DNA of 64,000 bases, taken from Rhodospirillaceae bacterium (lineage in GTDB: Bacteria > Pseudomonadota > Alphaproteobacteria > Rhodospirillales > Rhodospirillaceae). Position numbers and translations under genes: made by a program. Shown here in pieces: positions 48,282 to 64,000 of this stretch. Each line of letters opens with the position of its first letter. Position 1 is the stretch's first letter. Where the stretch lies: the NCBI GenBank assembly GCA_947476925.1, contig CANJSF010000018.1:1-64000 (forward strand). The letters run 5' to 3'. The notes beneath the pieces are model-generated. The model ran no database searches, was not told the origin of the DNA, and worked only from the letters and a program-made list of their open reading frames with translations.

Positions 48282-49163
48282 ATGCATCGAAAATCGTCAT
48301 GGGTCTTTTGGTTCGTGTTTTTGGCGGGGATCACCCCATCGCTGGCATGGGCGCAAGCCGCAGTCATTCCAACGGATATGCGCAGCCGCGTGACGACAGA
48401 ACTCGCGCCGGGCCTTTACACTTTTGGCAGCTTTGCCGCTCGTAGCATATTTGTGGTCGGCGAAGACGGCGTGATTGCAACTGACCCGGTCAATGCCGAC
48501 TTCGCCAAAGATATGCGCTCGGCCATTCGCAAGGTCACAAACAAGCCTGTCAAATACGTCGTCTATTCTCACCAACATTGGGACCACGTGAGCGGCGGCC
48601 AGATCTTCAAAGACGAAGGCGCAACATTCATCAGCCACGAAAAATGCGTGGCGCACTTTAAGGCTGATCCGAATCCCGCCATTGTGATGCCTGACCGCAC
48701 CGTCACGGGCGGCGAAACAATTTCGTTGAAAGGCAAAAGCCTGAAGCTGATGTACTTCGGGCGCAATCACGGCGATTGCATGCTGGTGATGCAACTCGAC
48801 GGCACTGATGTTTTATATGTGAACGACTTGGTCACGCCCTATTCGTTGGGCCTGGGCTTTATGCCTGATTACAATCCCAAAGAATGGGCACGCAGTTTAC
48901 GCGAAATCGAAGCGCGACCCGACTGGCAGCGCATGGTCGGCGGCCATGGCGTACCGTTCGGCCAGCGCGACGCAGTGACTCAGCGGCGCAAATTTCTGGA
49001 GCAGCTAATGGCGGCCGTGAAGCCCGAGTACGACAAAGGCCGGAGCGCCGACGACATTGCCGCGACGATTGATTTGCCCGAGTTTCGCGATGTGCGCGGT
49101 TACAAAGAACAAATTGGTCGGGCGGCTGAGCGCATTTATCATTACTATGAAATGGGCTGGTAA
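48282..49163 (+). CDS. Exported metallo-beta-lactamase-fold hydrolase, copy 1
   Basis: The 293-residue protein has a signal peptide (residues 1-24, SWVFWFVFLAGITPSLAWA) after a GGGGGGA ribosome-binding site. The zinc motif H-x-H-x-D-H is present (YSHQHWDHVSGG), with RNHGDC and GGHGVPFG supplying later ligands. It is a tandem paralogue of the next gene (shared segments VKYVVYSH and WDHVSGGQIFKDEGA). Family members hydrolyse beta-lactams, lactones, thioesters or other esters; the substrate here is unknown. It is the first of a three-gene plus-strand unit with copy 2 and an FkbM methyltransferase. Confidence 0.9.
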   Translation: MHRKSSWVFWFVFLAGITPSLAWAQAAVIPTDMRSRVTTELAPGLYTFGSFAARSIFVVGEDGVIATDPVNADFAKDMRSAIRKVTNKPVKYVVYSHQHWDHVSGGQIFKDEGATFISHEKCVAHFKADPNPAIVMPDRTVTGGETISLKGKSLKLMYFGRNHGDCMLVMQLDGTDVLYVNDLVTPYSLGLGFMPDYNPKEWARSLREIEARPDWQRMVGGHGVPFGQRDAVTQRRKFLEQLMAAVKPEYDKGRSADDIAATIDLPEFRDVRGYKEQIGRAAERIYHYYEMGW

Positions 49164-49178
49164 CGGGAGAATCAAACG

Positions 49179-50093
49179 ATGACAAATAAAACGATATGGT
49201 TTGTTGGAGCCATCATGGCGTTCTCGTGGCCGGCAATGGCCGACGACATTCCGGACCGTGCTGAATTGTTAAAGCCCGCTCCCAATCCGGCCTGGAACAA
49301 CTTTGGTGCAGGAAGGCCTATCACGCAGGAAATCGCGCCTGGTCTTTATACGTTCTCGGGCAGTGCAAGAACCATCTTCATGGTGACCAAGGACGGCGTG
49401 ATCGCGACCGATCCAGCGACGCCCAAAGACGCCAAAGCGATGCGTGAGGAAATTCGCAAAGTGACCGACAAGCCCGTGAAGTACGTCGTCTACTCGCACA
49501 ACCACTGGGACCATGTCAGCGGCGGCCAGATTTTCAAAGACGAGGGTGCTAAATTTATCAGCCACGAAAAATGCGTTCAGCATTTCAAAGACAAACCGAA
49601 CCCGGAAATCGTGATGCCCGACATCACATTTCCGAAAAACTACACTCTGAAACTGGGTGGGCGATCGCTGGAACTTATTTACCTTGGACCCAATCATGGT
49701 GATTGCTTGGTGTTTATGCGACCCGATAGCGAGAATGGTAAGTATTTGTTTGCCGTCGACATCGCCACTCCCGGCGGCGCACCGCTCACGTTCATGGCGG
49801 GTTACGACCCCGCCAACTGGCTGCGCACTTTGAAAGAACTGGAAGCTATGAATTTCAGCGTGATGATCCCTGGCCATGGTGTGCCGCTGGCTGATAAATC
49901 GAGCATCACCGAACGACGCAAATATCTTGAAGCCCTGATGGCCGCCGTGAAGAAAGCCAATGACGAAGGTATGCCTGGCGATCAAATCCCTGAGAAAGTC
50001 CGCGTGCCAGAGTTTGCATACTTACGCGGGTACGAACTCAACGTCCGTGACAACGTGCGGCGCATGCAAGCGTATTACGGGATCGGGGAGTAA
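49179..50093 (+). CDS. Exported metallo-beta-lactamase-fold hydrolase, copy 2
   Basis: The 304-residue paralogue of the preceding gene starts 15 bases after its stop. It has a signal peptide (WFVGAIMAFSWPAMADD), the zinc motif YSHNHWDHVSGG, PNHGDC and IPGHGVPL. The two proteins are similar throughout, so this is a recent tandem duplication. An FkbM gene begins 3 bases after its stop. The substrate is not predictable. Confidence 0.9.
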   Translation: MTNKTIWFVGAIMAFSWPAMADDIPDRAELLKPAPNPAWNNFGAGRPITQEIAPGLYTFSGSARTIFMVTKDGVIATDPATPKDAKAMREEIRKVTDKPVKYVVYSHNHWDHVSGGQIFKDEGAKFISHEKCVQHFKDKPNPEIVMPDITFPKNYTLKLGGRSLELIYLGPNHGDCLVFMRPDSENGKYLFAVDIATPGGAPLTFMAGYDPANWLRTLKELEAMNFSVMIPGHGVPLADKSSITERRKYLEALMAAVKKANDEGMPGDQIPEKVRVPEFAYLRGYELNVRDNVRRMQAYYGIGE

Positions 50094-55108: not shown

Positions 55109-55242
55109 CTCTGGAAAGAACCGACGAAACGATCAATTGTTCCCAAAAACCCGACACGCCTACAGTTTATTAATGCGCCTCAGCGTCATGATGGGATAAA
55201 TCAAATCTTGGACTTTCGTTGTTAGCGATCAAAGAATTCAGA

Positions 55243-56247
55243 ATGGCAAAACGCAAAATTCTCGTCACTGGTGCTGATGGATTTATCGGCTCACACCTGA
55301 CCGAAGCTTTGGTAAAGGCGGGCCACGATGTACGGGCGTTCGTGCTGTATAATTCTTTCAACTCGTGGGGTTGGCTTGATCAATGCGATCCGGCCGTCAA
55401 AGGAAAGTTCGAACCGTTTATCGGCGATATTCGCGACCCGCAAGCTGTGCTTACTGCGACCAAGGGCAGAGACGTCGTGCTGCACCTGGCCGCATTGATT
55501 GGCATTCCTTATTCCTATTACGCGCCTTATTCCTACATCGACACCAACATCAAAGGCACACTTAACGTTGTGCAAGCCGCGCGTGATTTGGGTGTGTCGA
55601 AAGTCGTGCACACGTCCACCAGTGAAGTTTATGGCACGGCGCAATTTGTGCCCATCACTGAAGAACATCCGCTGCAAGGGCAATCGCCATACTCGGCATC
55701 AAAAATTGGCGCCGACCACATCGCGCTGTCTTACTACCTGTCGTTCAACACACCCGTTGCGGTGTTGAGGCCCTTCAATACTTACGGCCCGAGGCAGTCG
55801 GCCCGCGCGGTGATTCCCACCATCATTTCGCAAATTGCCAATGGCGCCAAAACCATCAAGCTGGGCTCGTTGACACCCACCCGCGATTTTTCTTTTGTTG
55901 AGGACACCGCACGTGGGTTTATTGCCGCCATGGAAAGTGACGCCGTCGTTGGCCAGGTCACAAATGTTGGCAGCGGTTTTGAAATTTCAATTGGCGATAC
56001 CGCCCGCCACATCGCCGAAGTCATGGGCCGCGACGTATCGGTGGTTGAAGACAGCCAACGTGTTCGGCCAAAGAACAGTGAAGTTGAGCGGCTTTTTGCC
56101 AGCTATGACAAAGCCTCGAGATTGATGAATTGGCAGCCGTCATATGGCGGGGCCCAGGGTTTCAAACGCGGTTTGCAAAAAACCATCGACTGGTTCACGA
56201 ACCCCGACAATCTTTCGCGGTACAAAAGCGATATCTATAACGTATGA
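55243..56247 (+). CDS. legB: NAD-dependent sugar 4,6-dehydratase (LegB-type)
   Basis: I start at ATG 55243 (MAKRKILVTGADGFIGSH); 334 residues. The extended SDR fold has the TGADGFIGSH nucleotide loop, TSTSEVYG and catalytic Y150-x3-K154. The family is the nucleotide-GlcNAc 4,6-dehydratase group that starts legionaminic acid synthesis, giving a 4-keto-6-deoxy sugar. The order legB-legC-legG-legI supports this over GDP-mannose dehydratase. Its TGA overlaps the legC ATG (ATGA). The nucleotide (GDP in Campylobacter, UDP in Legionella) cannot be told from sequence. Confidence 0.85.
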   Translation: MAKRKILVTGADGFIGSHLTEALVKAGHDVRAFVLYNSFNSWGWLDQCDPAVKGKFEPFIGDIRDPQAVLTATKGRDVVLHLAALIGIPYSYYAPYSYIDTNIKGTLNVVQAARDLGVSKVVHTSTSEVYGTAQFVPITEEHPLQGQSPYSASKIGADHIALSYYLSFNTPVAVLRPFNTYGPRQSARAVIPTIISQIANGAKTIKLGSLTPTRDFSFVEDTARGFIAAMESDAVVGQVTNVGSGFEISIGDTARHIAEVMGRDVSVVEDSQRVRPKNSEVERLFASYDKASRLMNWQPSYGGAQGFKRGLQKTIDWFTNPDNLSRYKSDIYNV

Positions 56248-57434
56248 CGACCACGCCCTCAGCCGACATTGATCAAATTATCGCCGCACTTTGGACGGTA
56301 TTGCCCCGTGACGGCGCCCCCTTGGGTTTGCACGAACCAGAATTTGGCGCCAATGATCGCGCTTACGTTTTAGACGCAATTGACTCGACATTTGTCTCGT
56401 CCGTCGGCCCTTACGTTGATCGCTTCGAAAAAGGGTTAGCAGACTACACTGGTGCTAAGCGCGCCATTGCCGTTGTGAATGGCACTGCTGCCCTGCATAT
56501 CGCCTTGCTGGTTGCTGGCGTCGAACCCGGCGATGAAGTGCTAACACCAAGCCTCACGTTTATCGCGACTGCCAATGCTATTAGCTACTGCGGGGCTCGC
56601 CCCCTCTTTGTTGACAGCAGCGACATCAACCTCGGCCTCGATCCTGAAAAGCTGGCTGCGGGGCTGACCGAAACAGCAGAGATCAAGAACGGTCAATGTT
56701 ACAATCGCAAGACCGGTGCGCGAATTGCCGCCATTGTTCCGATGCACACGTTTGGGCATCCAGTGGACATGGACAGCCTGCTTGCGGTTGCACAACGGTG
56801 GTGTTTGCCGATTGTTGAGGACGCCGCAGAATCGTTGGGGTCGTTCTACAAGGGAAAACATACCGGCCGTTTTGGCTTGGTTGGCACGCTTAGTTTTAAC
56901 GGCAACAAAGTGCTAACGACGGGCGGTGGCGGGGCCATCATCACCGATGATGAGAAGATCGCTGATCGAATCAAACACCTCACGACTACCGCGCGACAAA
57001 AACATGCCTGGGCCTTTATGCACGATGCCATTGGCTACAATTACCGCTTGCCCAATTTGAATGCTGCCTTGGGATTCGCCCAGCTAGAACGCCTTGCCAA
57101 AGCCGTGAATGAGAAACGTGCGCTGGCTGCGCGTTACAAAACCGCCTTTGCGAGTATTCCTGGAGTTCGATTTGTCGATGAGCCGCCGCAGACGCAGAGC
57201 AACTTCTGGCTCAACGCCCTGTTATTGGCAACCGACAGTACTCAGCTGCTGACACCGCTTCTAGAAAAGACCAATGCGGCTGGCCTTGGCACCCGCCCCG
57301 TCTGGACCTTGATGCACAAACTGCCGATGTATGCAACTTGCCAGCGCATGGATGTCTCGGTTGCGGAAGACCTTGAACGACGACTGATCAATCTACCGTC
57401 GAGTCCACGCCTGGGCCGCAGCTATGCCGCTTAA
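56244..57434 (+). CDS. legC: PLP-dependent sugar aminotransferase (LegC-type, DegT/DnrJ family)
   Basis: The 396-residue protein has VNGTAALHIALLVAGVEPGD, VEDAAESLGS (D193) and the PLP-binding Lys222 in LSFNGNKVLTTGGGG. It is a DegT/DnrJ/EryC1 family enzyme and should aminate the 4-keto group made by LegB. The N-terminal extension before GLHEPEFGANDRAYV is typical of the LegC subfamily. It overlaps the next gene by 11 bases and is coupled to legB by ATGA. Confidence 0.88.
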   Translation: MTTTPSADIDQIIAALWTVLPRDGAPLGLHEPEFGANDRAYVLDAIDSTFVSSVGPYVDRFEKGLADYTGAKRAIAVVNGTAALHIALLVAGVEPGDEVLTPSLTFIATANAISYCGARPLFVDSSDINLGLDPEKLAAGLTETAEIKNGQCYNRKTGARIAAIVPMHTFGHPVDMDSLLAVAQRWCLPIVEDAAESLGSFYKGKHTGRFGLVGTLSFNGNKVLTTGGGGAIITDDEKIADRIKHLTTTARQKHAWAFMHDAIGYNYRLPNLNAALGFAQLERLAKAVNEKRALAARYKTAFASIPGVRFVDEPPQTQSNFWLNALLLATDSTQLLTPLLEKTNAAGLGTRPVWTLMHKLPMYATCQRMDVSVAEDLERRLINLPSSPRLGRSYAA

Positions 57435-58578
57435 AGTGTGCGTCATCACAAGCAGCCGTTCCGATTGGGGACTTTTGCAGCCTGTCGCGGCTTTGATGAA
57501 AACGGACGCTGACTTTGATTTAAAGATTATTGTGACCGGGCAACATTTGGTTGCTGCCGCTGGCCATAGCGCCGATGAGATTGTCGGTGAAGGGTTCACG
57601 ATCGACGAGCGCGTCGATATGGGCATGGGCGATGACAGTGCGCTTGGCGTGACGACCGCGTTGGCTAAAGCTGTCGAAGGCATAGGTCGGGCCATCCACA
57701 GGCTGAAACCGGACATCATTATGCTATTGGGTGATCGATACGAAATACTTGGGGCGGCAACCGCCGCGACCATTGCTCGCGTTCCCATCGCTCATCTATG
57801 CGGGGGTGACGTGACGGAAGGTGCAGTGGATGACGCCTTTCGCCATGCCATCACAAAAATGTCGCATCTTCACTTTGTCACGACGCCCGAGGCCGAACGG
57901 CGCGTTCAACAACTTGGTGAAGATCCAGCTCATGTTTTTATGGTTGGCAGCACGGGGCTTGATCGAATTCGAACTGCAAAACTCCTCGGCCGCGCTGCCT
58001 TTTTTGAATCAATCGGGTTGCAGCCTAGAACTAAAAATATTCTATCTACGTTTCATCCCGAAACACTAGAGCCCAAAACACGCGAGCACGCGCGCGAGAT
58101 GCTAGAGGCCTTCGACCTGCTTGGCCCGGATACTGGCATATTATTCTCGGGCACCAATTCCGATGTTGAGGGGCTAGCCATTGGCCAAGACATCGCATTG
58201 TTTGTCAAAACCCATCCAAACGCCGTTCTTGTTCAGAACCTTGGCTCGGTTCGCTATCTCAGTGCCCTGAAGCATATGGACGCGATTGTCGGGAACTCAT
58301 CGAGCGGCCTCTATGAGGCTCCGAGCTTTCAAATTCCGACCGTCAACATTGGTGACCGCCAAAAAGGTCGCCCGCGGGCTGCTTCGGTCATTGATACGCG
58401 AGCTGATCGACAGACAATCTTGGCTGCCTTGCGACAAGCATTTACACTCAATTGCACAAACATCGCCAACCCTTACGGTGACGGGTATTCAGCCCCGCGG
58501 GTCATGCAAACCCTAAAGGCGCAGGGTGATCTACAACCTTTGCTTAAAAAGCAATTCTTGGACGCGCGCGCATCATGA
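57424..58578 (+). CDS. legG: Hydrolysing UDP-sugar 2-epimerase (LegG/NeuC-type)
   Basis: The 384-residue GT-B-like protein has VCVITSSRSDWGLLQPV, VTGQHLVAAAGHSADEI, LLGDRYEILGAATAA, HLCGGDVTEGAVDDAFRHAI and VGNSSSGLYEAPSF, all characteristic of NeuC/LegG. It releases nucleotide and inverts C-2 to yield the ManNAc-like precursor for LegI. It overlaps legC by 11 bases and legI by ATGA. LegG is favoured over NeuC because the dehydratase and aminotransferase genes come before it. Confidence 0.9.
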   Translation: MPLKVCVITSSRSDWGLLQPVAALMKTDADFDLKIIVTGQHLVAAAGHSADEIVGEGFTIDERVDMGMGDDSALGVTTALAKAVEGIGRAIHRLKPDIIMLLGDRYEILGAATAATIARVPIAHLCGGDVTEGAVDDAFRHAITKMSHLHFVTTPEAERRVQQLGEDPAHVFMVGSTGLDRIRTAKLLGRAAFFESIGLQPRTKNILSTFHPETLEPKTREHAREMLEAFDLLGPDTGILFSGTNSDVEGLAIGQDIALFVKTHPNAVLVQNLGSVRYLSALKHMDAIVGNSSSGLYEAPSFQIPTVNIGDRQKGRPRAASVIDTRADRQTILAALRQAFTLNCTNIANPYGDGYSAPRVMQTLKAQGDLQPLLKKQFLDARAS

Positions 58579-59654
58579 CGACACCGCAGACTCTGATCAT
58601 TGCTGAGGCCGGCGTGAACCATAATGGTTCGATCGATCTAGCGTTGCAGTTAGTTGATGCTGCGGCGCAAGCAGGCGCTGATTTCGTCAAATTTCAAACA
58701 TTCAAGGCCGATCGCTTGGCCACATCCGCAGCGCCAAAGGCCGAGTACCAAAAGACAACAACGGGCACTCAAGAGAGCCAACTTGAGATGCTGAGAAAGT
58801 TAGAACTCAGTGACGGCGATCATCAGACGCTCATCGCGCATTGCAAACGACGCGGAATAAGGTTTTTATCCTCGCCGTTTGATGTCGAGAGCTTACAGTT
58901 TCTAGCCAAGGACCTTGCACTCGACGTCATCAAGATACCTTCTGGCGAGATCACAAATTCATTTCTTCTATTGGAAGCGGCTCGCTCTGACCGCCAATTA
59001 ATCCTGTCGACAGGCATGGCTTCGCTTGAGGAAATTGAAGCGGCCCTGAGCGTCTTGGCGTTTGGCTATTTGAAAACAACGGATAAACCCAATCGCGCCG
59101 CATTCCATGCCGCCTACCAGAATGCCGCTGCGCGAACTAAATTACGCGAACGCGTGACGCTGTTGCATTGCACGACAGAATACCCGGCCCCGTTAGATGA
59201 TATTCACCTGCAGGCGATGGATGTGATGCGGTCGCGGTTTGATTTGACCGTTGGTTACTCAGACCACACACCTGGCCTGACTGTCACGATCGCTGCGGTA
59301 GCGCGGGGAGCAAGGGTGATTGAAAAGCATCTCACCCTGAACCGCGAACTACCAGGTCCCGACCACAAAGCATCACTTGAGCCTGACGCATTCGCGTTGT
59401 TGGTGCAATCCGTCAGAGACGTCGAGCGCGCGCTGGGTAAGCCAATTAAAGAATGTCAACCGTCGGAAACAAAAAATAGACAGATTGCCCGCAAAGGACT
59501 CTATGCGTCGGCTGATATCGCTCAAGGCGAGTTACTCACGGCGCAGAATCTAACAATGAAGCGCCCCGTGGCTGGAAAATCCGCCTTTGACTACTGGGAT
59601 GTCTTGGGCACTCCGGCTCCGCGACCAATCTCGAAGGGCGAGCCGTTACAATAG
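58575..59654 (+). CDS. legI: Nonulosonic acid synthase (LegI/NeuB-type) with SAF domain
   Basis: The 359-residue protein has the NeuB barrel (IAEAGVNHNGSIDLALQLVD, FVKFQTFKADRL, IKIPSGEI, HCTTEYPAP, VGYSDHTPG, IEKHLTLNRELPGPDHKASL) and the C-terminal antifreeze-like SAF domain (ARKGLYASADIAQGELL). It condenses the 2-epimerised sugar with phosphoenolpyruvate to give the nine-carbon acid. It is coupled to legG and is the last gene of the plus-strand part; the class III aminotransferase gene converges on it 7 bases later. Confidence 0.92.
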   Translation: MTTPQTLIIAEAGVNHNGSIDLALQLVDAAAQAGADFVKFQTFKADRLATSAAPKAEYQKTTTGTQESQLEMLRKLELSDGDHQTLIAHCKRRGIRFLSSPFDVESLQFLAKDLALDVIKIPSGEITNSFLLLEAARSDRQLILSTGMASLEEIEAALSVLAFGYLKTTDKPNRAAFHAAYQNAAARTKLRERVTLLHCTTEYPAPLDDIHLQAMDVMRSRFDLTVGYSDHTPGLTVTIAAVARGARVIEKHLTLNRELPGPDHKASLEPDAFALLVQSVRDVERALGKPIKECQPSETKNRQIARKGLYASADIAQGELLTAQNLTMKRPVAGKSAFDYWDVLGTPAPRPISKGEPLQ

Positions 59655-59661
59655 GCAGCGG

Positions 59662-61017
59662 TCAATTGTATTTTCTGAAGACGGGCTTCACAGCTTGCCC
59701 GCGGAGAAAATTGCCAACACCATCTTCGAGCGCTTTAGCATAAACATCGAGCGCTTGTCGCGCTGCCGTCAGTGTCATCTCAAGTTCCTGGTCGCCATGA
59801 GCCAAGCTGACGGCGACCCACGGCATAAGAATGCCTCGGTCAATCATCTCTTGACTAAACAAGGTTCGGAATTCTGGAGAACTCTGACCTGACTTATCCC
59901 GTGTAATATAATTCAGCGAAATGGCTGGCCCATCGAAACAAAAGTGTGCGCCCAACCCCTTCTCGACAGCGAGCGCATTCATGCCGTCTTTGAGTTTCTG
60001 GCCATAGCTCCAGAGGTGCGCACAAACATCCTGCTCGCGATAGATTTTGATGGCTTCAACAAACGCGCCCAGGCCGCACATCTCGCCGCCATGGGTAGTC
60101 GATAGCAAAAATGTTCGTTCGGTTTGTGGCGTATCAATCGAGCCAACTTTCATCACCTCAGCGCGCCCGACTAACGCAGCGACAGAGAATCCATTGGCCA
60201 TGCCTTTGCCAAAGGTTGAGATATCTGGCTCAACCCCGAAATACGTTTGCGCCCCCTGAAGGTGCCAACGAAACCCAGTAATCATTTCATCAAGAATGAA
60301 CAGCGCGCCAGTTTTGCGGCACAAAGACTGAACAAGGTGCAAAAAGTTGCTACCTTTGTTAGGGCACATAGCGCATGGCTTTGCGTAGGAAAGCTCGCCC
60401 GAGCATGCCGCGCCACATGGTGTTTGCGTCGTTGCGGGTTCGAGCATGACGCCCGCGATTTCACCAGGATGGGCGTCAAAAAGACTTTGCAATGAAGCGA
60501 TGTCGCCGTAGTCAAATATCAGCGTCGTGTCGGCGTGTGAACCAGGAATACCGCGCTTAAGTGCAGTCGTTCCAATAAACCAATCATCAAACGAAAAGAA
60601 TGGATGTTGGCGGGGGACACAAATGTAACGGCGGCCTGTATATGCACGCGCAATCTTGGCTGCTGCTGTCGTAACGTTCGAGCCATTCTTAGCGAACTTC
60701 ACCATATCGGCGCTCGGAATGAGATCCACCATAAGCTCGGCGGCTTCCAATTCGATGACGCTGGCCCGGGTTAAGTTGTTACCGCGCTCTATCTCGCGCC
60801 ACGCCGCCGCGTTGACTCGCGCATTGGCATATCCCAACGTAACGGCGCGTAAGGACATACCATAGTCCAAGTAGCGACGACCATCTGGATCCCAGACATA
60901 GCAACCCGCGCCGCGATCAAGAATTTGCGGCGCGTTGGCAGGAAATTGATCAAAACCACGAGAATAGGTGTGGGCGCCGCCCGGGATGACCTTGTTCAAC
61001 CTGCTCTGATAATCCAT
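59662..61017 (-). CDS. Class III aminotransferase (glutamate-1-semialdehyde aminomutase-like) with four-Cys insertion
   Basis: I start at ATG 61017 (MDYQSRLNKVIPGGAHTYSR) after AAAGGCGAG; 451 residues. The class III fold is shown by FILDEMITGFR and catalytic K271 in STFGKGMANG. Between them lies PCGAACSG, then AKPCAMCPNKG, a C-x3-C-x9-C-x2-C cluster at C201, C205, C215 and C218 that resembles a zinc or iron-sulfur site. The location among nonulosonate genes argues against a role in haem biosynthesis. It likely aminates a keto-sugar or side chain; the exact step is unknown. Confidence 0.85.
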   Translation of the reverse strand: MDYQSRLNKVIPGGAHTYSRGFDQFPANAPQILDRGAGCYVWDPDGRRYLDYGMSLRAVTLGYANARVNAAAWREIERGNNLTRASVIELEAAELMVDLIPSADMVKFAKNGSNVTTAAAKIARAYTGRRYICVPRQHPFFSFDDWFIGTTALKRGIPGSHADTTLIFDYGDIASLQSLFDAHPGEIAGVMLEPATTQTPCGAACSGELSYAKPCAMCPNKGSNFLHLVQSLCRKTGALFILDEMITGFRWHLQGAQTYFGVEPDISTFGKGMANGFSVAALVGRAEVMKVGSIDTPQTERTFLLSTTHGGEMCGLGAFVEAIKIYREQDVCAHLWSYGQKLKDGMNALAVEKGLGAHFCFDGPAISLNYITRDKSGQSSPEFRTLFSQEMIDRGILMPWVAVSLAHGDQELEMTLTAARQALDVYAKALEDGVGNFLRGQAVKPVFRKYN

Positions 61018-61082
61018 CGTCTCGCCTTTACGAATTACGACACGCTTAAACACACTGCATATCGAATGCTGCAGAGAAAATT

Positions 61083-61739
61083 CTAGTCTAGATATGGCTC
61101 ACCGAGTTCCCGAACTCGAATCAAGCGCGCCGGAGTGCCATACATAACACAAGGGCCATGGGCATCCTTGTTGAGATAGCTCTGGGCACCAACGACAACA
61201 TCTGCGCCGATCGAAACATTGTGCTTGATGGCCGCACCTATGCCGATGGCGGCCCGTTCACCCAACGTCACTCCTCCGCCGGTCACGGCGCCCGGAGCAA
61301 TCGACGCGAAATCCCCGAGGCAGTTATCGTGATCGAGCGCCGCTTGGGTATTAACGATGCAAAAATTCCCAACTTTCGTGTTTGCGCCAATCATTGCGCC
61401 CGCCATCACGACACTGCCAGGTCCGACTGCGGAAAAACTCGACACGTGAGCGCGGGGGTGGATTAGCGCAGGAAATGCGTTCAACTGAAGCTGACGTGAA
61501 GTCTCGCGCCAAATTTTCTCTCGCGAAAAATTGTCGCCGACTGCAATTGCGAAAGAAGCTGAGCGATCTGATAGCGCCTGATCGAGTGCAGCAAGGACCA
61601 AAACTTCCATGTGCGTTTGGCCTACGCGCGCAGGATCGATAAAACAGCTGAGTCGAAATCCCGCTGCAACAGCAACATCTGCAACGCTTGTTGCATGGCC
61701 GCCGGCGCCGATTATTACGATTGTTCTTTGCTCAGCCAC
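61083..61739 (-). CDS. Sialic-acid-type O/N-acyltransferase (NeuD/PglD family)
   Basis: The 218-residue protein has an N-terminal nucleotide-binding fold (IVIIGAGGHATSVADVAV) and a C-terminal left-handed beta helix of hexapeptide repeats (VGPGSVVMAGAMIGANTKVG, and IGIGAAIKHNVSIGADVVVG) ending MYGTPARLIR. It belongs to the NeuD/PglD/LegH group that acetylates amino or hydroxyl groups of nonulosonate precursors. The start is GTG 61739; no alternative is near. It lies between the SDR and the aminotransferase genes on the same strand. Confidence 0.85.
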   Translation of the reverse strand: MAEQRTIVIIGAGGHATSVADVAVAAGFRLSCFIDPARVGQTHMEVLVLAALDQALSDRSASFAIAVGDNFSREKIWRETSRQLQLNAFPALIHPRAHVSSFSAVGPGSVVMAGAMIGANTKVGNFCIVNTQAALDHDNCLGDFASIAPGAVTGGGVTLGERAAIGIGAAIKHNVSIGADVVVGAQSYLNKDAHGPCVMYGTPARLIRVRELGEPYLD

Positions 61740-61882
61740 AGAGTCTTAACTTTTTGCTATCTGCCTTCGAAATGGTGCTGGAACTTACATGAAAAAGCGA
61801 CGGTTGACGACCCATCGCTCGTATGGCCGGCAAAAACTGACCAATGTTTAATCCCACGACTGCCGTAGGAATGTGACCGGGC

Positions 61883-62683
61883 CTACCATGCGCTCCACCC
61901 GCCGTCGATTACGATGTTCTGCCCCGTAACGTAGGCCGAAAGCGATGTCGCCAGAAACATGATCGCACCGATCACATCTTCCTCGCGCATCATCCTCCGC
62001 ATAGGAGTACGTTCCACGTACTCTTTGACAAACCGTTCGGGCTGTCCGCGCGCGATCCCGCCAGGAGAAATCGTATTGACACGGATGTCGGGCGCTAAAG
62101 TTGTGGCGAGCCATCTTGAAAGCTGCGCTACACCTCCCTTGGACGCCGCATACGCCGCAGGATTGCCTAAGCTCGTGCCATCATACAGACGCCAATCTGG
62201 ACCTAAGATCCCATAAATTGAGGATATGTTGATGATGCTGCCAGCATCAGCCCGCAATAGAGTTGAAAATCCCTGACAAAGTTCAAACACGGCGGTGAGG
62301 TTAACTTCAATGGCCCTCCGCCACGTTTCTACGCTTTGCTTCTCAAATGCCACCCCCCAGCCACCAAGGTCGGAGGTTCCAACAAATGCTGCGTTATTAA
62401 TCAGAATATTAAGTTTGCCAACGCGCGCCGCTACCGTTTCAATTAACTTTGCTCGCTGATCTTGAACTTCGAGATCGCAGACGAGAGGCAACGCTTTCAC
62501 CTTCCAACGCGACGAAATCTCTAGACTGAAATTTTCTAATTGAGATTGCTCGCGATCAACCAGCACCAATTCAGCTCCGAGCTCGGCAAGAGCGTGGGAC
62601 ATCGTGCGACCCAAATGTCCAGCCGCACCCGTGATCAGCGCGACCTTCCCCTTCAATGATGCGAGCGTCCCTATATCAATCAT
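61883..62683 (-). CDS. Short-chain dehydrogenase (PtmA-like) in the nonulosonate cluster
   Basis: The 266-residue protein has ALITGAAGHLGRTMSHAL, ILINNAAFVG, Ser in INISSIYG and Y-x3-K in AAYAASKGG, so all SDR residues are intact. The segment RRMMREEDVIGAIMFLATSL followed by VTGQNIVIDGGW is the usual C-terminus. In Campylobacter a similar gene (ptmA) sits in the legionaminic cluster. Here it could oxidise a sugar hydroxyl before amination by the class III aminotransferase; this is inference. It follows the cytidylyltransferase gene by 23 bases. Confidence 0.85.
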   Translation of the reverse strand: MIDIGTLASLKGKVALITGAAGHLGRTMSHALAELGAELVLVDREQSQLENFSLEISSRWKVKALPLVCDLEVQDQRAKLIETVAARVGKLNILINNAAFVGTSDLGGWGVAFEKQSVETWRRAIEVNLTAVFELCQGFSTLLRADAGSIINISSIYGILGPDWRLYDGTSLGNPAAYAASKGGVAQLSRWLATTLAPDIRVNTISPGGIARGQPERFVKEYVERTPMRRMMREEDVIGAIMFLATSLSAYVTGQNIVIDGGWSAW

Positions 62684-62706
62684 CTGCTTACCATTGTGTG
62701 GAAAAC

Positions 62707-63420
62707 CTATTGCCCAATACCGCGATGCTTCATCACGGCTTCGACATGAAGAAAGTCGATCTCGTCATCAATCTCAAGTGACTTCCACTTTGGGACTTCA
62801 AAGCCAATTGTCTGGTCATGGTAAAATGAGCGCCGCTCAGCAATCGAAGATGTGCGCGCAGCATAAACGGTTCCCTCGAGGAAAAATACCGGTGACGTAG
62901 CCTGGCGACGTAAGCCAACGGCGACATCGGGCAAGAACGGCCGCAGCGCGCCACCCTCACCCATGAAATACATGAAAGAAGGGTGGATTGTTGTGGCTTG
63001 GCAGACACTCACAATTGAAAGTGCTTTCGACGCAGCTAGGGTATCAAGAGCGCCATCGATATCCGACACCTCGCGAAGAGGCGATGTCGGTTCGAGCAAA
63101 ACCAGGTAATCGTAGTGGCGATTTTGTGCCTGTAGAAAACTGAGAGCATGCAAGATGGCGTCGATTGACGTCGCGGTATCTGAAGCCAGCTCGGCCGGCC
63201 GCAGAAACGGGGCTTCGGCGCCCGCGGCTTCGGCCGCACGCGCAATGTCAGAAGAATCAGTGCTGATCACAACGGCGTCGAGATATTTCGATTGCTTGGC
63301 AACTTCAACGGTCCAAGCGACCAAAGGTTTGCCTCGCAACGGCCGTATATTCTTGCCGGGCAAACCCTTCGACCCGCCACGCGCAAGGATCAGGCCCAGT
63401 GCTTTTTCGCCGTGGATCAT
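62707..63420 (-). CDS. legF: CMP-nonulosonate (acylneuraminate/legionaminate) cytidylyltransferase
   Basis: I start at ATG 63420 (237 residues), preceded by GGGGCGGG; TTG 63441 is also in frame. The nucleotidyltransferase motif ARGGSKGLPGKNIRPL, LVAWTVEVAKQSKYLDAVVI and LEPTSPLRE are typical of NeuA/LegF. It activates the nine-carbon acid as a CMP-sugar for transfer to protein or polysaccharide. It heads the minus-strand set of cytidylyltransferase, SDR, acyltransferase and class III aminotransferase. Confidence 0.9.
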   Translation of the reverse strand: MIHGEKALGLILARGGSKGLPGKNIRPLRGKPLVAWTVEVAKQSKYLDAVVISTDSSDIARAAEAAGAEAPFLRPAELASDTATSIDAILHALSFLQAQNRHYDYLVLLEPTSPLREVSDIDGALDTLAASKALSIVSVCQATTIHPSFMYFMGEGGALRPFLPDVAVGLRRQATSPVFFLEGTVYAARTSSIAERRSFYHDQTIGFEVPKWKSLEIDDEIDFLHVEAVMKHRGIGQ

Positions 63421-63456
63421 AACCCGCCCCGCTGCCGGCAAAATAACGTCACGCGC

Positions 63457-64000
63457 TCAGCCTTTCACGGCAGCGCCAAGCGCCGGCATCAGAAATATAC
63501 TATCTCCCATCGCGTAAATGACAGGCTTCGTCTCGGCGGGCAGTCCGGCGATAGCGCAGAGTTTTAAAGTGATGGCGGTAATTTCATCGATGGAAATGGA
63601 ACACTTCTCAACAAGCACCTGAATTCGTGGTGGCGTGGGAATGGCATTAAACTGCAACGGCCCCGCGACGAATGGCAATGTCTTTACGAACTTCGTGATC
63701 AAATCGATCGACGAGACTGTATCGATGTTTTTGATAAATCCCTCAAATGCTGCGCGGCTGGGCATGGGCACGTCGCGCTTACCATGTAAAAACTGAGTGG
63801 CATCATCGATCAAACGATCCGATAAAGCATAAACAGGATTAACCAAGTTCGACAGAAACGCGCGTGAAATCCAGTTTTCCAGCTTCACCAAGCTCATCGC
63901 CGTCTTGCCCGCGATTGCCGATTCCATCCCCGTTGTACAGGACGTATGAATCAATAGATCTGCCGCGAGTGTCCACGGGACATGCGACCCTTCGTGGAAT
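63457..64000 (-). CDS. Surface carbohydrate biosynthesis protein, C-terminal part
   Basis: The frame runs open from the window end to a stop at 63457 (181 residues visible); the start is outside. The segment near 63900-63990, LAADLLIHTSCTTGMESAIA followed by GKTAMSL, is the typical C-terminal motif of GT-B-like surface carbohydrate proteins (as in the CDP-glycerol transferase group). The remainder is a helical, less conserved tail. It lies upstream of legF on the same strand and could be the transferase or assembly protein that uses the activated sugar. Confidence 0.75.
   Translation of the reverse strand, partial: FHEGSHVPWTLAADLLIHTSCTTGMESAIAGKTAMSLVKLENWISRAFLSNLVNPVYALSDRLIDDATQFLHGKRDVPMPSRAAFEGFIKNIDTVSSIDLITKFVKTLPFVAGPLQFNAIPTPPRIQVLVEKCSISIDEITAITLKLCAIAGLPAETKPVIYAMGDSIFLMPALGAAVKG

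Follow-up and report, generated by a model that had tools for sequence, protein, structure and literature searches.

A class III aminotransferase in a putative acetamidino-legionaminic acid gene cluster of a Rhodospirillaceae bacterium may aminate carbon 8 of the sugar

We analysed a 64,000-nucleotide stretch of DNA (hereafter, the window) forming positions 1 to 64,000 of contig CANJSF010000018.1 of a Rhodospirillaceae bacterium (assembly GCA_947476925.1). The last 9 kb of the window hold two convergent gene sets: a plus-strand core for the synthesis of legionaminic acid (Leg), and a minus-strand set that includes a pyridoxal phosphate (PLP)-dependent class III aminotransferase, here named AT3. 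Our preferred reading, with a probability of about 45%, is that AT3 aminates C8 of an acetamidino-legionaminic acid, with possible acylation of the new amine by a putative acyltransferase (SAT) encoded just beyond the window; the reactions of AT3, of SAT, and of a short-chain dehydrogenase/reductase (SDR) of the same set are all predicted from sequence. AT3 is the real addition to the Leg gene set; the SDR probably is not an extra.

The evidence for this reading comes mainly from the neighbours of AT3 in other genomes. We compared 46 AT3 loci, consisting of the window and of loci chosen from several searches; they are not a random sample. Of the 40 rows listed by the plasmid search (1153 records matched), 6 were opened, and some of the 46 loci are close kin (L175 and L176; L086 and L181). 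Controls were taken from 20 hand-picked loci of the nonulosonic acid synthase NeuB. Two of these held AT3 (one as a fused gene, both with an aldo/keto reductase), leaving 18 AT3-free loci. The models for aldo/keto reductase, Gfo/Idh and PseG derive from sequences of AT3 loci and may be less sensitive in the controls. NeuB or a cytidine monophosphate (CMP)-sugar synthetase was found at 36 of the 46 AT3 loci, and both at 23. Among these 36 nonulosonic-linked loci, 30 carried an oxidoreductase gene, with an SDR at seven and a Gfo/Idh gene at seven, versus two and one, respectively, among the 18 AT3-free controls. An aldo/keto reductase was present at 18 of the 36 loci and at none of the 18 controls (Fisher p = 1.3e-4, uncorrected for kinship); when loci with LegG were excluded, the proportions were 18/30 and 0/10 (p = 8e-4, likewise uncorrected). 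Moreover, AT3 and the CMP-sugar synthetase shared one open frame at 10 of the 46 loci; four of these fusions were confirmed by Pfam, and a fifth long frame, in L076, contained the AT3 domain only. Because AT3 can be fused to a CMP-sugar synthetase, these sequences suggest that it acts once the nine-carbon sugar or its CMP derivative has been formed. A preliminary description of this DNA had proposed that an additional carbon is oxidised and aminated, which is a reasonable reading, since aminotransferases related to AT3 are repeatedly accompanied by oxidoreductases in clusters for nonulosonic acids.

In the pyranose forms of Leg and of pseudaminic acid (Pse), the only carbons with a free hydroxyl are C4 and C8. 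At C8, the route would lead from CH(OH)CH3 through CO-CH3 to CH(NH2)CH3. AT3 could instead aminate C4, the one remaining carbon of Leg with a free hydroxyl, but we regard this as quite improbable, given that the natural example found of an extra amine is located at C8. That example is 8-amino-3,5,7,8,9-pentadeoxynonulosonic acid, which Flexibacter maritimus is reported to carry in its O-polysaccharide (PMC3210612). In addition, ElaA, to which a putative oxidoreductase role in making 8-epilegionaminic acid is ascribed (PMC9676051), offers a parallel for oxidoreductases acting at C8.

In the proposed pathway, a PtmE-like protein and housekeeping genes would supply nucleoside diphosphate N-acetylglucosamine (NDP-GlcNAc), which LegB, LegC, a NeuD-type LegH and LegG would convert to a diamino 6-deoxy-mannose. 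LegI would join this sugar with phosphoenolpyruvate, LegF would make the CMP sugar, and a WbuX-type amidotransferase with HisH and HisF would turn one acetamido group into an acetamidino group. An oxidoreductase of the cluster would oxidise a carbon to a ketone; within the window's set, no candidate for this step other than the SDR was seen. AT3 would then place another amine at that carbon, either on the nine-carbon sugar itself or after its activation with CMP, and SAT may acylate that amine.

The genes concerned are listed below; numbering beyond 64,000 continues along the contig, which is 70,653 bases long.

55219..56247, plus strand: LegB, NDP-GlcNAc 4,6-dehydratase (TIGR04180, 512.8 bits, cut-off 475)
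56244..57434, plus strand: LegC, DegT-family 4-aminotransferase (TIGR04181, 538.9, cut-off 420)
57424..58578, plus strand: LegG, hydrolysing 2-epimerase of the NeuC type (TIGR03568, 399.8, cut-off 235.9)
58575..59654, plus strand: LegI, nonulosonic acid synthase of the NeuB type with SAF domain (TIGR03569, 454.1, cut-off 399.65; PF03102, 304.5)
59662..61053, minus strand: AT3, class III aminotransferase (PF00202, 127.1 bits; NF004856/PRK06209, 633.3, cut-off 486)
61083..61739, minus strand: NeuD/PglD-type N-acyltransferase, candidate LegH (TIGR03570, 179.4, cut-off 160.8)
61883..62683, minus strand: SDR oxidoreductase (PRK09186, 190.9, under the cut-off of 255; PtmA model NF050062, 133.9, under 350)
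62707..63441, minus strand: cytidylyltransferase, candidate LegF, i.e. CMP-nonulosonic acid synthetase (PF02348, CTP_transf_3, 87.7 bits)
63457..64000, minus strand: surface carbohydrate biosynthesis protein, C-terminal part in the window, gene to contig 64785 (L002:9458-10786; TIGR04396, 232 for the whole protein, cut-off 125)
contig 64916-65584, minus strand: SAT, putative acyltransferase (annotation of plasmid homologue)
contig 65581-66342, minus strand: HisF (WbuZ model, 282.4, under the cut-off of 299.7)
contig 66336-66953, minus strand: HisH (TIGR01855, 233.4, cut-off 105.4)
contig 66950-68137, minus strand: WbuX-type amidotransferase (TIGR03573, 298.2, cut-off 203.2)
contig 68152-69213, minus strand: PtmE-like nucleotidyltransferase (CBS and NTP_transferase domains)

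The consecutive genes LegB, LegC, LegG and LegI overlap by 4, 11 and 4 bases, and only 7 bases separate the end of LegI from the end of the minus-strand set, formed by AT3. The minus-strand set is cut by the window edge inside the surface carbohydrate gene and extends to about 69213, after which pseudopilin-like genes (named by eye) follow the PtmE-like gene. The preliminary description had recognised the coupling of the four plus-strand genes, all of which scored above curated cut-offs, and had correctly placed legF, an SDR, a NeuD-like acyltransferase, a class III aminotransferase and a surface carbohydrate protein on the minus strand. The LegB start listed above is a TTG; the likely start is the in-frame ATG at 55243, which is also where that description had begun the gene.

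According to the curated models, the plus-strand core is of the Leg/Neu type and not of the Pse type: LegC scored 241.9 on the PseC model (cut-off 423.5) and LegI scored 261.2 on the PseI model (cut-off 340.25). LegI was the sole PF03102 match in the whole genome at E ≤ 0.001. The published Leg set consists of LegB, LegC, LegH, LegG, LegI and LegF (PMC4481668 for Plesiomonas; PMC9298399). The candidate LegF reached the cut-off of none of the 8 NCBIfam models that were listed for it; its best solved relative was the CMP-N-acetylneuraminic acid synthetase 6ifd (125.8 bits). The PtmE-like protein, with its CBS and NTP_transferase domains, passed no equivalog cut-off. HisH exceeded the general HisH cut-off, and HisF, which scored 282.4 on the WbuZ model (cut-off 299.7), 255 on AglZ/HisF2 (310) and 250.5 on HisF (294.55), was closest to WbuZ. 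PtmG has been named a CMP-Leg5Am7Ac acetamidino-synthase (PMC13317340). Judged from their sequences, these genes likely encode an acetamidino-legionaminic acid pathway, even before AT3 is considered, and the product would differ from plain diacetyl-Leg because of the WbuX-type, HisH and HisF genes beyond the window. It had also been proposed that only one acyltransferase is present, an impression that arose because the window edge cuts the minus-strand set: SAT, a second putative acyltransferase, lies just past the edge. The six-enzyme pathway of Campylobacter jejuni likewise uses one N-acyltransferase, LegH (PMC9298399).

The aminotransferase and the SDR had both been described as going beyond the standard route. 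This stands for AT3, as the ten-gene Leg table of Plesiomonas contains no class III aminotransferase (PMC4481668), but it is not supported for the SDR. The closest relative of the SDR among the loci compared was that of the Leg cluster L182 (61% identity), and the two paired with support 100/99 in both trees constructed (18 and 17 SDRs, the second tree omitting a row that had been mistranslated). L182 contains LegB, LegC, a formyltransferase, LegI, LegG, and PtmE-like, WbuX-like, HisH, HisF, Gfo/Idh, LegF-like and SDR genes, without AT3. Similarly, the SDR of the AT3 locus L069 was 58% identical to that of L187, another AT3-free Leg cluster. An SDR was present at five of the six LegG-type AT3 loci versus two of the eight LegG-bearing loci without AT3 (p = 0.10). 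The PRK09186 cut-off of 255 was passed by the SDRs of L162 (351) and L163 (268); those of L069, L095, L099 and L182 (171.4 for the last) were below it, and the window SDR was below both the PRK09186 and the NF050062 cut-offs, so membership of PtmA was not established. PtmA belongs to the Leg set of Plesiomonas, in which ptmA is assigned to the first segment of the pathway (PMC4481668). By sequence similarity, the SDR is probably a regular Leg-cluster gene in the place of ptmA and not an extra, and it may also serve AT3. An SDR and AT3 as a dedicated pair in Leg clusters was a candidate explanation that is weakened by the close SDRs of L182 and L187. In the place expected for LegH, L182 has a formyltransferase-like gene (L182:8436-9329; NCBIfam, under cut-offs), as does L187 when examined by eye (L187:10463-11461), which suggests that these two clusters make an N-formyl Leg.

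These data bear on a second explanation, unlikely in our view yet a serious one, in which the locus is an ordinary acetamidino-Leg cluster: the SDR would be the PtmA equivalent, AT3 would make an amino-sugar precursor or replace PtmF, and the final sugar would be unchanged. The position of ptmA in the first segment of the Plesiomonas pathway is consistent with this (PMC4481668). The AT3-free L182, which has the 61%-identical SDR, also carries a Gfo/Idh (PtmF-like) gene, and no Gfo/Idh gene was seen in the window's set; a search of the window's own genome gave a best score of 27 bits, a weak test, since the query from L070 is 28% identical to the Gfo/Idh of L182. Against this explanation, AT3, Gfo/Idh and SDR occur together in G561, and a precursor role is hard to see for AT3 relatives that lie in pseudaminic-type clusters and for those fused to a CMP-sugar synthetase. 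As a general replacement of PtmF, AT3 was rejected, because G561, G407 and G702 all hold AT3 with a Gfo/Idh gene.

Leg-type neighbours were found at seven AT3 loci; at one of these, L165, where the contig is short, PtmE- and LegF-like genes were the only such neighbours seen. The gene order LegF, WbuX-type, HisH, HisF, SAT, AT3 and SDR is shared by G373 (L069) and the plasmid CP049031 (L095), and the window has the same seven genes, rearranged. G850 and G561, from the family of Polaribacter, combine Leg genes with a PtmE-like gene, a CMP-synthetase (with a weak score in G561), AT3 and an SDR; G561 additionally carries its Gfo/Idh gene, and G407 and G702 combine AT3 with Gfo/Idh. SAT was present at 3 of the 46 AT3 loci, all three with a WbuX-type gene, and at none of the 18 AT3-free controls, two of which have a WbuX-type gene. 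SAT has 222 residues, and its plasmid homologue (43% identity) is annotated as a serine acetyltransferase. In L162, a Leg cluster from the family of Polaribacter, a nitrilase/amidohydrolase-like gene (L162:10639-11433) was observed between AT3 and the SDR, and in two loci the PtmE-like protein, represented by its CBS region, was fused in frame ahead of LegC (L166:7953-9428 and L095:27919-29478).

With two candidate acyltransferases in the set, AT3 might also make an amino-acyl substituent that the NeuD-type enzyme or SAT attaches, the carbon skeleton remaining unchanged. We consider this distinctly unlikely. Amino-acid transaminases, such as beta-phenylalanine aminotransferase, are among the structural relatives of AT3, and Leg5Ac7AcAla or a similar sugar has been suggested for A. 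wodanis, a related Leg cluster having a second aminotransferase of unstated family (PMC7371886). However, at 10 of 46 loci AT3 is fused to the CMP-sugar synthetase (fusions to acyltransferases were not searched for), and partnership with an aldo/keto reductase would agree at least equally well with the oxidation of a sugar carbinol.

AT3 enzymes of this kind are uncommon. The NF004856 cut-off was passed by 4 of 398 genomes of the phylum, including the window's own, and by 4 of 396 genomes sampled from the family of Polaribacter, and the A1 profile at E 1e-110 matched 11 of 289 genomes of the class, again including the window's own. In a tree of 53 rows, built without the two-frame AT3 of plasmid locus L095, AT3 and its relatives separated from HemL with support 100/99. 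The six Leg-linked AT3 rows formed one clade (97/91) that unites the window's class and the family of Polaribacter. Six rows labelled CDP-sugar, from clusters without a visible NeuB, formed another (99/98); this label comes from annotation in two records (glucose-1-phosphate cytidylyltransferase), the four other rows being placed by similarity. The 31 rows labelled Pse were not monophyletic (4 changes).

The PLP-lysine motif of AT3 contains Lys283, which was invariant across the 18-row alignment A2. An AlphaFold model of AT3, based on a 14-row alignment (mean predicted local distance difference test score 80, predicted template modelling score 0.84), was closest in the Protein Data Bank (PDB) to FumI and then to glutamate-1-semialdehyde aminomutase (GSAM), with GenB3 and GenB4 ranking 37th and 39th; amino-acid transaminases, among them beta-phenylalanine aminotransferase, were also recovered. 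The amines handled by FumI and the GenB enzymes are borne by sugar carbons or by carbons carrying a methyl group, an arrangement that resembles C8-C9 of Leg. Systems of the GenQ/GenB type pair an oxidoreductase with a class III transaminase to aminate a sugar carbinol; the likeness of AT3 to such pairs is limited to fold similarity to GenB3, GenB4 and FumI. A four-cysteine insert at approximately residues 214-235 was present, among ten loci inspected, only in the window AT3 (CGAACSGELSYAKPCAMC) and the CP049031 AT3 (CGGCDGETRWPETPCHAC; L095:15510-16367), and may bind a metal. In this plasmid record, the AT3 gene is divided over two frames (L095:14989-16367) and is not listed as a gene by PLSDB.

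The model NF004856, which AT3 passed with 633.3 bits against a cut-off of 486, is labelled GSAM, and AT3 might accordingly be read as the aminomutase of tetrapyrrole synthesis. The chance of this is close to negligible. On the HemL model TIGR00713, AT3 scored 184.1, below the cut-off of 527.3. At the site aligned to what we take to be the catalytic Glu406 of GSAM, one HMMER alignment placed a Val and the other a gap. No glutamyl-tRNA reductase was found in the genome, the best match scoring 33 bits with a cut-off of 209.55, which 10 of 14 control genomes pass, so no route to the HemL substrate is seen. Together with the tree split, these results led us to reject AT3 as HemL. As an alternative heme route of the genome, 5-aminolevulinate synthase was likewise rejected: its best match was a serine palmitoyltransferase, and its cut-off was not passed. 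Thus, in a genome with a completeness of 99.25, neither 5-aminolevulinate synthase nor glutamyl-tRNA reductase passes its cut-off, which leaves the heme supply unexplained and counts against our rejection of the aminomutase label.

Several observations weigh against C8 amination by AT3. Ten of the 46 AT3 loci have neither NeuB nor CMP-synthetase (L067, L068, L073, L078, L096, L097, L098, L100, L169 and L170), and 6 of the 36 nonulosonic-linked loci have no oxidoreductase by the models used. Among the nearest sisters of this AT3 clade of Leg clusters is a group whose own clusters show no NeuB. The occurrence of the SDR in the AT3-free clusters L182 and L187 means that the window has no AT3-specific oxidoreductase. 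As for acylation, two more AT3 loci with a WbuX-type gene (L171 and L172) are without SAT; searches with SAT against Pfam (E ≤ 0.001), against NCBIfam (E ≤ 1e-25) and against PDB sequences (E ≤ 1e-5) were all negative, and its designation as an acyltransferase derives from the annotation of the plasmid homologue and the sub-threshold hexapeptide match of that homologue.

By gene content, the CMP-Leg pathway of C. jejuni and Plesiomonas shigelloides has LegB, LegC, LegH, LegG, LegI, LegF-like, PtmE-like and ptmA-like SDR genes in common with the window. The window set differs by the addition of AT3 and SAT, by its distribution over two strands, and in that no PtmF-like gene was seen; its LegF-like, PtmE-like and SDR proteins pass no curated equivalog cut-off. 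Compared with the WbuX/PtmG/PseA acetamidino modules, the WbuX-type and HisH proteins are over their cut-offs and HisF is closest to WbuZ, although it is under both the WbuZ and the AglZ/HisF2 cut-offs. The fused CMP-synthetase/AT3 proteins of Pse-type clusters are members of the AT3 family as well (the four compared were 33-35% identical to the window's AT3) and have similar neighbours, but form one polypeptide instead of two and mostly have an aldo/keto reductase or Gfo/Idh partner.

Comparable gene arrangements have been described in other bacteria. The Aeromonas group I flagellin islands are described as having an alpha/keto reductase and a class III aminotransferase beside pseF (PMC7874193); they have a Pse core with an aldo/keto-type reductase, whereas the window has a Leg core with an SDR. 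The O-antigen locus of Legionella pneumophila serogroups 6/12 is described as a row of a GSAM-like aminotransferase, an acylneuraminate cytidylyltransferase, an acetyltransferase, HisF, HisH, a lipopolysaccharide protein and an aryl-alcohol dehydrogenase-like oxidoreductase, with PseG also listed (PMC3694923). An aminotransferase of unsettled role is mentioned in Leptospira (PMC3438082), and the Leg clusters of Aliivibrio are noted to contain a second aminotransferase (PMC7371886). The cited portions of the Aeromonas, L. pneumophila, Leptospira and Aliivibrio accounts assign no function to these aminotransferases, nor do the titles and abstract openings of the open-access literature searched. 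By its structure, the sugar of Flexibacter (Tenacibaculum) maritimus is of the kind predicted as the product, with a manno backbone and other acyl groups (PMC3210612).

Outside the typical clusters, the Methylomagnum ishizawai plasmid NZ_AP019784 (L099) has a row of two transketolase halves, AT3, an SDR, a NeuB-type synthase and a haloacid dehalogenase (HAD)-type hydrolase, which looks like another, non-Leg ulosonic acid pathway. Two IMG/VR contigs filed as viral (L065 and L066) carry AT3 beside NeuB and cytidylyltransferase genes. Elsewhere in the window, at 48282-50093, we observed two adjacent similar genes, metallo-beta-lactamase-fold hydrolase-like as named by eye.

In a broader and doubtful extension, which we put forward tentatively, enzymes of the AT3 family, each teamed with one of several interchangeable oxidoreductases (in Leg clusters an SDR or a Gfo/Idh protein, in Pse clusters an aldo/keto reductase or again a Gfo/Idh protein), would form a general tailoring cassette that yields 8-amino-8-deoxy nonulosonic acids and is not confined to a single phylum. 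The window would then code for an acetamidino-legionaminic acid that has not been described before and bears an amino or acylamino group at C8. Flagella, capsules and O-antigens are coated with nonulosonic acids, some of which resemble the sialic acid of the host. If the AT3 family does aminate C8, a whole class of sugars would become predictable from the sequence of a single gene; it could also explain the 8-amino O-antigen sugar of a marine fish bacterium, and would provide enzymes for making new sialic acid analogues.

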